Source: an uncultured Cetobacterium sp. | Lineage (GTDB): Bacteria; Fusobacteriota; Fusobacteriia; Fusobacteriales; Fusobacteriaceae | Reading direction: 5' to 3' | Length of the DNA: 64,000 nucleotides | NCBI RefSeq assembly: GCF_947072685.1 | Contig: NZ_CAMTIK010000006.1 | Coordinates: 1 to 64,000, forward strand | Shown: piece by piece, positions 33,945 through 37,541 of the stretch | How positions within the stretch are numbered: position 1 is the first letter of the stretch | Layout of the letters: each line of letters begins with the position of its first letter | Program-made: the position numbers and the translations under genes | Notes under the pieces: generated by a model | What the model was told of the DNA's origin: nothing | Databases searched by the model: none | What the model saw: the letters and a program-made list of their open reading frames with translations, nothing else

Positions 33945-35855
33945 ATGAAAGTAATATTACCAAGTGGAGATATAAAAGAATTTGAAAACAGTGTAAATAT
34001 GTTTGAAATTGCAAAATCGATAAGCAATTCATTAGCTAAAAAAGCTATTGGAGCAAAAGTTGATGGAGTAGAAGTGGATATGAGTTATATATTGGATAGA
34101 GATGCTAAAGTTGAACTTATAACTCCTGAAACAGAAGAGGGAGAAGAGATAATAAAACACTCAACAGCACATCTTTTGGCACAAGCTGTTATTAGACTTT
34201 TTCCAGAAACAAAGGTTGCGATAGGACCATCTATTGAAAATGGATTCTATTATGACTTTGATCCAGTTGAGCAGTTTACTGATGAGGATTTAGCTAAAAT
34301 TGAAGCTGAAATGAAAAAAATAGTAAAAGAAAATATAAAAATTGAAAGAATAGAGATGGTTAGAGAGGCTGCTATAGAGCACTTTAAAAACTTAGGAGAA
34401 AACTATAAAGTAGAAATTATAGAGAGTATTCCAGCAAATGAGATGTTAACTTTCTATAAGCAAGGTGACTTCATTGATTTATGTAGAGGACCACATGTAC
34501 CATCAACATCTTATTTGAAAGCATTTAAATTAAAATCAGTAGCAGGAGCTTATTGGAGAGGGGATTCTAACAATAAAATGTTACAAAGAATCTATGGATT
34601 TGCATTTGCAACTGAACCTCAATTAAAGGCACATTTAAAATTCCTAGAAGAAGCAGAAAAAAGAGATCATAGAAAATTAGGAAAAGAATTAGAGTTATTT
34701 TTTACAAGTGACTTTGGACCAGGATTCCCATTTTTCTTACCAAATGGAATGAAGATGAGAAATGTATTGACTGATCTTTGGAGAAGAGAACATGAGTTAG
34801 CTGGATATGAGATGATCCAGACTCCAATCATGTTAAATAAAGAGTTATGGGAAACTTCAGGACACTGGATGAACTATAGAGAAAATATGTATACATCTGA
34901 AATTGATGAGACTGAGTTTGCTATAAAACCTATGAACTGTCCAGGAGGAGTTTTAGTTTATAAACATGGAATGCATTCATATAAGGATTTACCTATAAGA
35001 GCCGGAGAGTTAGGAATTGTTCATAGACATGAATTTTCAGGTGCATTACATGGTCTTATGAGAGTTAGAAACTTTACTCAAGATGACGCACATATATTTA
35101 TGACTCCAGAACAAATCGAAGATGAAATTATAGGTGTAGTAAACTTAATAGATAAGTTCTATAGAGGACTTTTTGGATTTGAATATTCTATTGAACTTTC
35201 AACAAGACCTGAAAAAGCTATCGGATCTCAAGAGATTTGGGATAAAGCAGAATCAGCTTTAGAAGGAGCACTAAAAAAATTAGGAAGAGACTATAAACTA
35301 AATCCTGGAGACGGAGCGTTCTACGGACCTAAATTGGATTTTAAAATAAAAGATGCAATTGGAAGAACATGGCAATGTGGAACAATTCAATTAGACTTTA
35401 ACCTTCCTGAGAGATTTGATATCTCTTATGTTGGAGAAGACGGAGAAAAACACAGACCAGTTATGATTCATAGAGTTGTTTACGGATCTTTAGAAAGATT
35501 TATGGGAATATTAATAGAACACTATGCGGGAGCATTCCCTACTTGGTTAGCACCATGCCAAGTTAAAGTGTTGACAATAAATGACGAAGTAGCTCCTTAT
35601 GCCAAAGAGGTTGTTGAGTTGTTAAAAGCTGCAGGAATAAGAGCAGAGATTGACACTAGAGCAGAGTCAATAGGATATAAAATAAGAGAAGCAAATGGAA
35701 AATATAAAGTTCCAGTTCAATTAATCATAGGAAAAAATGAGGTAGAGAATAGAGAAGTTAATGTAAGAAGATTTGGATCGCAAGATCAAGAATCAATGAA
35801 TCTAAATGACTTTGTAAATATGATGGAGATTGAAGCAAAACCAAAATTTAATTAA
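33945..35855 (+). CDS. thrS: Threonyl-tRNA synthetase
   Basis: This is a class II synthetase charging tRNA-Thr. The 636 residues show an N-terminal TGS domain (1-60), the editing domain with HSTAHLLAQAV and LCRGPHVPST, and the catalytic core with MNCPGG, RHEFSGALHGLMRVRNFTQDD cut short here, and VHRVVYGSLERF, then the anticodon-binding domain. The zinc ligands (Cys in MNCPGG, plus downstream His) are visible. AAAGGAG precedes the ATG. There is no T-box leader: it follows lptD directly. A terminator follows. Confidence 0.97.
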   Translation: MKVILPSGDIKEFENSVNMFEIAKSISNSLAKKAIGAKVDGVEVDMSYILDRDAKVELITPETEEGEEIIKHSTAHLLAQAVIRLFPETKVAIGPSIENGFYYDFDPVEQFTDEDLAKIEAEMKKIVKENIKIERIEMVREAAIEHFKNLGENYKVEIIESIPANEMLTFYKQGDFIDLCRGPHVPSTSYLKAFKLKSVAGAYWRGDSNNKMLQRIYGFAFATEPQLKAHLKFLEEAEKRDHRKLGKELELFFTSDFGPGFPFFLPNGMKMRNVLTDLWRREHELAGYEMIQTPIMLNKELWETSGHWMNYRENMYTSEIDETEFAIKPMNCPGGVLVYKHGMHSYKDLPIRAGELGIVHRHEFSGALHGLMRVRNFTQDDAHIFMTPEQIEDEIIGVVNLIDKFYRGLFGFEYSIELSTRPEKAIGSQEIWDKAESALEGALKKLGRDYKLNPGDGAFYGPKLDFKIKDAIGRTWQCGTIQLDFNLPERFDISYVGEDGEKHRPVMIHRVVYGSLERFMGILIEHYAGAFPTWLAPCQVKVLTINDEVAPYAKEVVELLKAAGIRAEIDTRAESIGYKIREANGKYKVPVQLIIGKNEVENREVNVRRFGSQDQESMNLNDFVNMMEIEAKPKFN

Positions 35856-35883
35856 AAAATAGACCTTAGGGTCTATTTTTTTT
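35856..35883 (+). terminator. Terminator after thrS
   Basis: Stem AAAATAGACC / GGTCTATTTT (35856-35865, 35870-35879) with loop TTAG, followed by T residues that lead straight into the next promoter. Confidence 0.8.
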
Positions 35884-35910
35884 GATTTTTACAATAAAAT
35901 ATGTTAAAAT
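35882..35910 (+). promoter_or_regulatory. Promoter of the preQ1-controlled operon
   Basis: TTGATT (35882-35887) and TAAAAT (35905-35910) with 17-base spacing and a TGT extended -10. It starts within the T run of the thrS terminator and predicts a leader of about 155 bases. Confidence 0.6.
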
Positions 35911-35940
35911 AAGGTGAATTAAATAAAAATCCATTTATAT

Positions 35941-35978
35941 GGTAGATGTTCGTAAACCTCCATCTTAAAAAAACTAGG
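35941..35978 (+). promoter_or_regulatory. preQ1-I riboswitch
   Basis: The short H-type pseudoknot of preQ1-I riboswitches is visible. P1 is AGATG / CATCT (35944-35948, 35961-35965), the loop TTCGTAAACCTC carries the conserved cytosine region, and an A-rich tail (TTAAAAAAACTAGG) supplies AGG (35976-35978) to pair with CCT (35957-35959). Ligand binding should fold the tail and change the fate of the downstream terminators. The two genes behind it fit queuosine salvage. Confidence 0.85.
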
Positions 35979-35995
35979 CTTAAACTATTAAGTAT

Positions 35996-36018
35996 AAGGG
36001 GTAAATTTACCCTTTTTT
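35996..36018 (+). terminator. First terminator of the preQ1 leader
   Basis: AAGGGGTA / TACCCTTT (35996-36003, 36008-36015) around AATT, then more T. ACCTC in the riboswitch loop (35956-35960) can pair with GGGGT (35998-36002), an obvious alternative fold. Confidence 0.75.
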
Positions 36019-36025
36019 AATTTTG

Positions 36026-36049
36026 AGCAGGGGTTTCCCTGCTTTTTTT
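36026..36049 (+). terminator. Second terminator of the preQ1 leader
   Basis: GCAGGG / CCCTGC (36027-36032, 36037-36042) with a GTTT loop and seven T residues, just 27 bases before the start codon of the first gene. Confidence 0.8.
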
Positions 36050-36075
36050 ATTTTTAAAAACTAGGAGAAATGAAA

Positions 36076-36780
36076 ATGGGAATTAGGTATAATAGAATTG
36101 AAAATGGGAACAGAAGAGAGATTGTTTTGTTAAAAGGGTATCCTTGCAAGTATGGGAAATGTAAATTTTGTAACTATATAGAGGATAACTCAACAGATGA
36201 GGTAGAGATTGAAAAAATAAATTTTGAGACTTTAGAAGAGGTTACAGGAGAATTTGAGGCCCTGGAGGTTATAAATTCAGGTTCAGTATTTGAACTTCCA
36301 AAATCAACATTAGAAAAAATAAAAGAGGTAGCTCTTCAAAAAGGAATAACATTAATTTATTTTGAAATATATTATGGATATAAAAATAGGCTATCAGAAA
36401 TAAGAGAGTTTTTCAAGGGGATAGACATAAGGTTTAGGATGGGAATGGAGACATTTGATGATGAATTTAGAATAAATAACTATGGTAAAAATTTTAAAAT
36501 CACGGATGAAGAATGTGAATCTTTAGGAAAAAAACTCTATTCAGTATGTCTTCTAATATGTGCTAAAGGGCAAACAAAAGAGATGATAGAAAAAGATTTA
36601 GAATTAGGATTAAAATATTTTAAAAGTATAACAATAAATATATTTATAAACAATGGAACAGTGGTTGAAAGAGATGAAGAGTTGGTAAAATGGTTTGTAA
36701 AAAAATATCTTTATTTACAAAACGATCCAAGAGTGGAATTGCTTATCGACAATAAAGATTTAGGAGTATTTGAGCAATAA
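36076..36780 (+). CDS. Radical-SAM-like protein, candidate queuine lyase (QueL-like)
   Basis: This 234-residue protein has a cysteine cluster GYPCKYGKCKFCNY (C24, C29, C32) in the place of a radical-SAM 4Fe-4S site. The spacing is CX4CX2C rather than the usual CX3CX2C. The rest fits a short TIM-barrel-like domain (EALEVINSGSVFELP, FRMGMETFDDEFR, KSITINIFINNGT). It is the first gene after the preQ1 riboswitch and lies beside a queuosine-precursor transporter. A radical-SAM enzyme, QueL, is known to release preQ1 from queuine in some gut bacteria; this gene is a good candidate for that role by context. The start at 36076 is preferred over 36070 because AGGAG is too close to the latter. Confidence 0.6.
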   Translation: MGIRYNRIENGNRREIVLLKGYPCKYGKCKFCNYIEDNSTDEVEIEKINFETLEEVTGEFEALEVINSGSVFELPKSTLEKIKEVALQKGITLIYFEIYYGYKNRLSEIREFFKGIDIRFRMGMETFDDEFRINNYGKNFKITDEECESLGKKLYSVCLLICAKGQTKEMIEKDLELGLKYFKSITINIFINNGTVVERDEELVKWFVKKYLYLQNDPRVELLIDNKDLGVFEQ

Positions 36781-36804
36781 GATAAGAAATGTAGGAGAGA
36801 TGAT

Positions 36805-37515
36805 ATGAGAAACGAAATTTTATGGGGAATAATGCTTTTGGTAAACTTTTTTAGTATAATTTTTATTTATAAAAAATTTGGAAAGTTAGGATTGTTTATG
36901 TGGGTTCCTATAAGTAGTATTTTAGCTAATATTCAAGTTGTATTGTTGGTTAATCTTTTTGGATTTGAAACAACACTTGGAAATATAATGTATGCTGGAG
37001 GATTCTTAGTTACAGATATACTTTCTGAAAATTATGGTGAGGATGAAGCTAAAACAGCTGTTAAATTAGGATTTTTTAGTATGATTGTAACAGCTATAAT
37101 AATGAAAATAGCAGTTTCTTTTGTGCCGAGTGCAGTTCAAGAGGGTGTTGCTAATTTTCAAAGTTTAAAAATGATATTTGATTTTATGCCAAGAATATTA
37201 TTTGCAGGATTAGTAGCTTATGGAATATCTCAGAGACATGATGTATGGGCTTATAAATTTTGGAAAAATAGATTTCCATCTAAAAAACATATTTGGATTA
37301 GAAATAATTTTAGTACATTGATTAGTCAATTAATAGATAACTTGATATTTACAACAATAGCTTTCGCAGGAGTATACCCTATGCAAGTTTTAGTAGAGAT
37401 ATTTATAGTGACATATGTTATGAAGGTAATAGTTGCGACATTAGATACACCATTTGTATATTTAGCAAGCTATTTAAAGGAAAATAAAAAAGTAAGTGAA
37501 AATATTTTAATTTAG
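36805..37515 (+). CDS. yhhQ: Queuosine precursor transporter (YhhQ / VUT family)
   Basis: This membrane protein of 236 aa has about six hydrophobic segments and the DUF165 signature (GGFLVTDILSENYGEDEAKTAVKLGFF, cut short: FLVTDILSENYG). YhhQ imports preQ0, preQ1 or queuine. It is the second gene of the preQ1-riboswitch operon, which fits feedback control of uptake by the ligand. GGAGAGATGAT precedes the ATG. A strong terminator follows at the stop codon. Confidence 0.93.
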   Translation: MRNEILWGIMLLVNFFSIIFIYKKFGKLGLFMWVPISSILANIQVVLLVNLFGFETTLGNIMYAGGFLVTDILSENYGEDEAKTAVKLGFFSMIVTAIIMKIAVSFVPSAVQEGVANFQSLKMIFDFMPRILFAGLVAYGISQRHDVWAYKFWKNRFPSKKHIWIRNNFSTLISQLIDNLIFTTIAFAGVYPMQVLVEIFIVTYVMKVIVATLDTPFVYLASYLKENKKVSENILI

Positions 37516-37541
37516 TGCCGAGAGCTTCTCGGCATTTTTTT
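37516..37541 (+). terminator. Terminator after yhhQ
   Basis: Stem TGCCGAGA / TCTCGGCA (37516-37523, 37527-37534) with a GCT loop and seven T residues. Confidence 0.88.

Follow-up and report, generated by a model that had tools for sequence, protein, structure and literature searches.

A preQ1 riboswitch–queL–QPTR operon and probable queuine salvage in Cetobacterium, with related arrangements across the Fusobacteriota

What would a cell do with a small radical-SAM-like protein whose gene lies between a preQ1 riboswitch and a queuosine-precursor transporter? This question is raised by a locus in the window, by which we mean the whole stretch of 64,000 nucleotides analysed here, taken from contig NZ_CAMTIK010000006.1 of an uncultured Cetobacterium sp. 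(Fusobacteriota). Following the analyses described below, we consider it highly probable that this is a queuine salvage operon under preQ1 riboswitch control, with the order riboswitch–queL–QPTR, which imports queuine and splits it to preQ1.

All features of the locus lie on the + strand. The open reading frame upstream (33945-35855), which from its sequence we take to be thrS, ends in a terminator-like hairpin of 12 pairs (35854-35881), and between this hairpin and the riboswitch aptamer (35939-35983) there is a promoter-like site, TTGATT-17-TAAAAT with TG (35882-35910), which is a consensus match only. The aptamer is followed by two terminator-like hairpins in tandem, the first (35996-36015) in the position of the expression platform and the second at 36025-36044, then by the QueL reading frame (36070-36780, 236 aa) and by the gene for a QPTR (YhhQ/COG1738) transporter of the QueL-linked type (36805-37515, 236 aa). 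Another terminator-like hairpin, of 10 pairs, closes the locus (37514-37536). All these hairpins came from a hairpin scan, and in the scanned stretch such hairpins were enriched (six on both strands against a shuffle mean of 0.2), whereas promoter-like sites showed no clear enrichment (15 against a shuffle mean of 10.6, sd 3.6). The riboswitch, the two leader hairpins, queL and the QPTR gene are apparently a single operon.

The QueL frame is open from an ATG at 36070 and has an in-frame ATG at 36076. An AGGAG at 36063-36067 lies 8 nt upstream of the second ATG and 2 nt upstream of the first, and the starts of relatives, set manually, aligned at or after 36076 in 18 of 19 cases, the longer one being L020. 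Because of this spacing and of these starts, 36076 is favoured over 36070. Counted from there, the CX4CX2C codons (36145-36171), the predicted [4Fe-4S] site, place the cysteines at 24, 29 and 32, exactly as an earlier note on this DNA had stated; counted from 36070 they would be 26, 31 and 34.

The same note had called this spacing non-standard, and this holds in one sense only. CX4CX2C is uncommon among radical-SAM proteins at large, but judging from the aligned sequences it is the QueL family's own normal motif, the three cysteines being invariant in 20 of 20 aligned QueL sequences and present also in the solved structure 6p78 (CKYGKCKFC in the window protein, CIWGKCSFC in 6p78). A contig scan for relatives had returned 19, of which 14 were from Fusobacteriota and five from Bacillota.

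Searches of Pfam and NCBIfam gave no significant family for the QueL frame, and with no model catching it, automatic annotation may leave the protein unnamed. A phmmer search of PDB sequences gave one strong match, 6p78, a 'queuine lyase from Clostridium spiroforme' (E=1e-58, residues 6-233 of 236). Identity over the aligned stretch is 47% (108/228), and of the 54 columns that do not vary among the 20 aligned rows, 53 carry the same residue in 6p78, compared with 55 of 174 at the other aligned positions. An AlphaFold model built from that alignment had a mean pLDDT of 92.8, and Foldseek superposed it on 6p78 ('bound to SAM and queuine') with a TM score of 0.93, an rmsd of 1.4 Å and E=2.4e-26; the second match had E=1.9e-5, and the other 49 listed had TM scores of at most 0.60 by query length. 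The assignment to QueL had previously been drawn from context and cysteines, and both the sequence match and the fold agree with it. In the structure comparison that the note had proposed, 6p78 was the top fold and no other radical-SAM family was comparable. Membership of the window protein in the QueL family is therefore well supported by sequence and predicted fold. It could be argued that a generic radical-SAM fold, in a protein lacking a significant Pfam or NCBIfam family, was called QueL from context only, and that the enzyme is really QueE, lipoyl synthase, HydE or something similar. Given the E value to a queuine lyase and the TM scores of the other listed matches, this has a vanishingly small probability, and these families were ruled out as candidates by the 6p78 fold match.

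QueL enzymes carry a [4Fe-4S] cluster on their cysteines and cleave queuine in a SAM-dependent reaction that leaves preQ1. From its homology we infer that the window protein would be active as a queuine lyase. It is very improbable that, as a QueL homologue, it has shifted to a different substrate, for example the queuosine nucleoside or some other 7-deazapurine. The substrate is fixed by homology alone, at less than half identity; however, the family-invariant positions match, with one exception, those of an enzyme solved with SAM and queuine, and the gene order, the preQ1 riboswitch and the missing de novo genes described next all point to queuine.

The window genome is 2.15 Mb in size and 99.8% complete, and it falls in the same genus as G012. 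The earlier note had proposed a search of this genome for the queuosine genes, and the result was as it expected: tgt (558.6 bits), queA and queH, the downstream genes, are all present, and queC, queD and queF gave nothing over cut-off. The best queC score was 36.7 bits against a cut-off of 150.3, with partial matches covering about 60 of 201 positions; queD had no match; and the one match to queF, itself under the cut-off, fell within the GTP cyclohydrolase FolE. A hidden de novo pathway was rejected on these results, and with it the full pathway that the note had named as evidence against its proposal, as far as queC, queD and queF were searched. The gene content suggests that this bacterium seems unable to make queuine itself. 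In the part of PMC6593275 consulted, a study of gut genomes, pantothenate and queuosine are given as the only vitamins that most Fusobacteria, Cetobacterium and Leptotrichia excepted, do not make.

The TGT of the window genome has the pocket GGLAVG, of the E. coli-like preQ1 type, and the sections of PMC11570991 that we used state that queuine-salvaging TGTs typically carry GG[LS][AS]G. With a GGLAVG pocket, therefore, imported queuine should mostly need prior conversion to preQ1. The same sections describe a Bartonella TGT, also GGLAVG, which uses queuine at elevated concentrations, and consequently the pocket leaves room for some direct queuine use. As for QueK, the window genome has a single PF01156 nucleoside hydrolase. 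Its best PDB match is RihA (E=1.1e-78), its best NCBIfam model is also RihA (333 bits against a cut-off of 433), and it is 33% identical to the riboswitch-linked QueK-like protein of a Haloimpatiens locus (L023). On this basis it was rejected as a QueK, and no QueK was recognised in the window genome.

The protein encoded beside QueL matched TIGR00697 (E=1.3e-63, 214.5 bits, cut-off 50.95) and PF02592 (E=4.2e-48, 164 bits, cut-off 27.2), both well over the curated cut-offs, and the earlier identification of a queuosine-precursor transporter is borne out by these matches. It is 26% identical to E. coli YhhQ and is the single QPTR found in the window genome. Going by gene linkage only, we infer that it carries queuine.

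This linkage is common in the phylum. QueL was found in 70 of 98 Fusobacteriota genomes, with one broken copy (G015), and in 59 of these 70 it adjoins QPTR, as QueL-then-QPTR in 29 genomes and QPTR-then-QueL in 30; in the remaining 11 the QPTR is located elsewhere. The combination of riboswitch, QueL and QPTR recurs in further genera, and because it does so, and because the cysteines are invariant, the locus is not a product of chance. In a QPTR tree, which has long branches and for which no deep branching order is claimed, the QueL-linked genes did not fall into a single group but into the QueL-first type, the type of genus g14 and the genes of family f4.

An alternative is that the window QPTR imports preQ1 and that QueL is an independent source of preQ1, made from queuine entering otherwise, the two genes being paired only since both feed preQ1 and share the riboswitch. 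The E. coli QPTR does take up preQ0/preQ1 and not queuine, according to the portion of PMC11130926 consulted, and there are ten genomes with QPTR but neither QueL nor queC, from which it follows that QPTR works without QueL somewhere. On the other hand, queuine would then need another importer in a genome where a sole QPTR was found, and a common substrate would fit the finding that the two genes are neighbours, in one order or the other, in 59 of the 70 QueL genomes. A QPTR with queuine as its cargo is described for C. trachomatis in the consulted part of PMC11570991. We regard a preQ1 importer as rather unlikely here, and import of queuine as the preferred reading.

The presence of QueL was also compared with that of the de novo genes. 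queC was over its cut-off in 27 of the 98 genomes; 15 genomes had both queC and QueL, 55 QueL only, 12 queC only and 16 neither. The tendency of the two genes to avoid each other is slight (Fisher p=0.045, with kinship uncorrected), and for QueL against strong queD matches, assigned by hand to 28 genomes, p was 0.081. Because 15 of the 70 QueL genomes carry queC, QueL is not confined to queC-less genomes; the 15 (G018-G021, G029, G033, G034, G036, G046, G053-G056, G059 and G060) are likely queuosine makers. A distant PTPS/QueD-like protein of about 190 aa (E ~1e-11) was seen in G005, G007, G010-G014 and others, including genomes where queC did not reach its cut-off.

Two further observations concern individual QueL loci. 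The broken QueL (L091; G015:C1:165212-165915) consists of overlapping pieces with internal stops beside a QPTR without a stop, and its sequence perhaps reflects a natural loss. In Bacillota, partners other than QPTR were found beside QueL, namely QueT in L024 (4995-6168) and an ECF-type transporter subunit in L025 (4469-5678; from Pfam) and in L026 (607-1816; by near-identity to L025).

The earlier note had also placed a preQ1 riboswitch ahead of the gene pair, and here the Rfam model (RF00522) gave a match of 39.7 bits, barely over the gathering cut-off of 39 (E 1.5e-4, model positions 1-45 of 45). No further preQ1-I riboswitch was found in the window genome among the 150 candidates scored out of 1363 from a first look. 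The Rfam score was at or above gathering in the window and in L016, L021 and L023, and slightly under it in L012, L013, L017, L018, L019 and L022, and these ten leaders were used to build a riboswitch model, R2. It was run on the window and on 90 QPTR loci, counting matches to E=0.1 (the weakest at about 19 bits); the tally, like the QPTR tree, covers 89 of the 90, with L152 (G027) left out for its broken QPTR frame. An R2 aptamer precedes 48 of 57 QueL-linked QPTR loci, including L091, where the QueL behind it is the broken copy, and eight of these 48, plus the window, are R2 training sequences. It also precedes 15 of 17 QPTR loci away from QueL in QueL-bearing genomes, and 2 of 15 from genomes without QueL. 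Matches in L015, L038 and L041 (16.7 bits, 13% GC) were taken as chance.

By a simple rule, at least one terminator was present in 56 of 65 riboswitch leaders, compared with 13 of 1300 single-base shuffles, in a count that excludes L148 and the second riboswitch match in L125. Two leader terminators, the arrangement of the window, were seen in 5 of the 65 (L084, L085, L103, L104 and L113). An antiterminator was sought by eye in the leader and no pairing consistent across relatives was found. The leader features, as read from sequence, would fit transcription attenuation by preQ1, and the riboswitch is probably an OFF switch.

Taken as a mechanism, the proposed salvage would run as follows. QPTR would bring queuine into the cell, and QueL, as a minimal radical-SAM enzyme with one [4Fe-4S] cluster on CX4CX2C, would split it with SAM to give preQ1. 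The preQ1-type TGT would then insert preQ1 into tRNA, where QueA and QueH would rebuild queuosine. Accumulated preQ1 would bind the aptamer, and transcription would stop at the leader hairpins.

A second arrangement of QPTR genes was found in ten loci (L078, L086 at 749-2513, L087, L088, L090, L092, L097, L100, L105 and L106), which have the order riboswitch, nucleoside hydrolase, QPTR. The aptamer matches are partial and weak in nine of them (22.5-23.1 bits, E ~0.004-0.006) and reach 41 bits in L105. The hydrolases are 48-54% identical to that of the Haloimpatiens locus L023 and 32-37% identical to the RihA-like protein of the window genome. L023 has the C. difficile-like order riboswitch, hydrolase, ECF, QueL, and from its neighbourhood and these identities the QPTR-linked hydrolases are putatively QueK-like. 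In one genome the QueK-like gene is split across two overlapping reading frames (L105:326-1301). QueK in other genomes was sought in QPTR neighbourhoods only.

In the tree the QueK-linked QPTRs group together with support of 98/99, and all ten loci sit in QueL-bearing genomes. Six of these genomes have both types of QPTR, and within each the QueK-linked and QueL-linked proteins are 52-55% identical. The remaining four are G003, G007, G008 (67% complete) and G011; in these no QPTR adjoins QueL, and the QueK-linked QPTR was the only one found. The two types differ at 22 alignment columns, the QueL-linked set being 28 QueL-first rows; shared descent may account for these differences as much as function does, and no specificity residue is claimed. 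In two Cetobacterium loci, L010 and L011 (5001-5705 each), where the queL coordinates agree with those in G011 and G008, a solitary queL starts 65 and 63 bases downstream of thrS, and neither a neighbouring QPTR nor a match to the riboswitch was found. Such a gene looks like a decayed form of the window operon in which queL was kept, as far as its position and surroundings suggest.

The gene pattern of two branches therefore predicts separate importers, for queuine where QPTR is linked to QueL and for queuosine where it is linked to QueK. Perhaps the Fusobacteriota have two QPTR importers, each with its own enzyme and preQ1 riboswitch, the QueL-linked one taking queuine and the QueK-linked clade taking queuosine, which QueK would cut to queuine for QueL. 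The window species would then have the queuine branch only, and some sister species the queuosine branch and a solitary QueL. We put this forward tentatively, as a possibility with somewhat less than even chances. Clustering of QPTR with queuosine salvage genes, QueK included, is already published (PMC11130926, in its section 2.2). The two-branch pattern had no match in the surveyed parts of PMC11130926, PMC11570991, PMC11477304, PMC6593275 and PMC10570037, with the 2019 QueL paper outside that scope. The six genomes with both types are ready pairs for finding the determinants of QPTR specificity, a question addressed in the part of PMC11570991 consulted.

Compared with known systems, the enzyme route is largely known biology, and the window QueL is an added member of a known family. 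It resembles the C. spiroforme enzyme 6p78 in length, in fold, in the CX4CX2C motif and in nearly all invariant positions, and differs from it in about half of the aligned residues and in its host, which belongs to the Fusobacteriota. The C. difficile operon, riboswitch–queK–qrtT–queL in the consulted part of PMC11477304, likewise has a preQ1-I riboswitch before queL and an importer of queuosine precursors, for indirect salvage via preQ1. Its importer, however, is the ECF subunit QrtT where the window has QPTR, and it includes queK, which the window operon lacks and which was not recognised elsewhere in the window genome. The transporter belongs with QPTR/YhhQ (COG1738, TIGR00697) by the curated cut-offs, although it is distant from E. 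coli YhhQ. In the direct queuine salvage of Chlamydia trachomatis, as the consulted sections of PMC11570991 describe it, QPTR carries queuine, and the window QPTR may do so too; the TGT there is of the queuine type, whereas that of the window genome is of the preQ1 type and is accompanied by queA and queH, so conversion would be expected first. The informative part of the operon is its transporter partner, the enzyme being already known. From the distribution of QueL, salvage by way of queuine lyase, as known from C. difficile, would seem to be widespread in a second phylum (70 of 98 genomes), there with another transporter.
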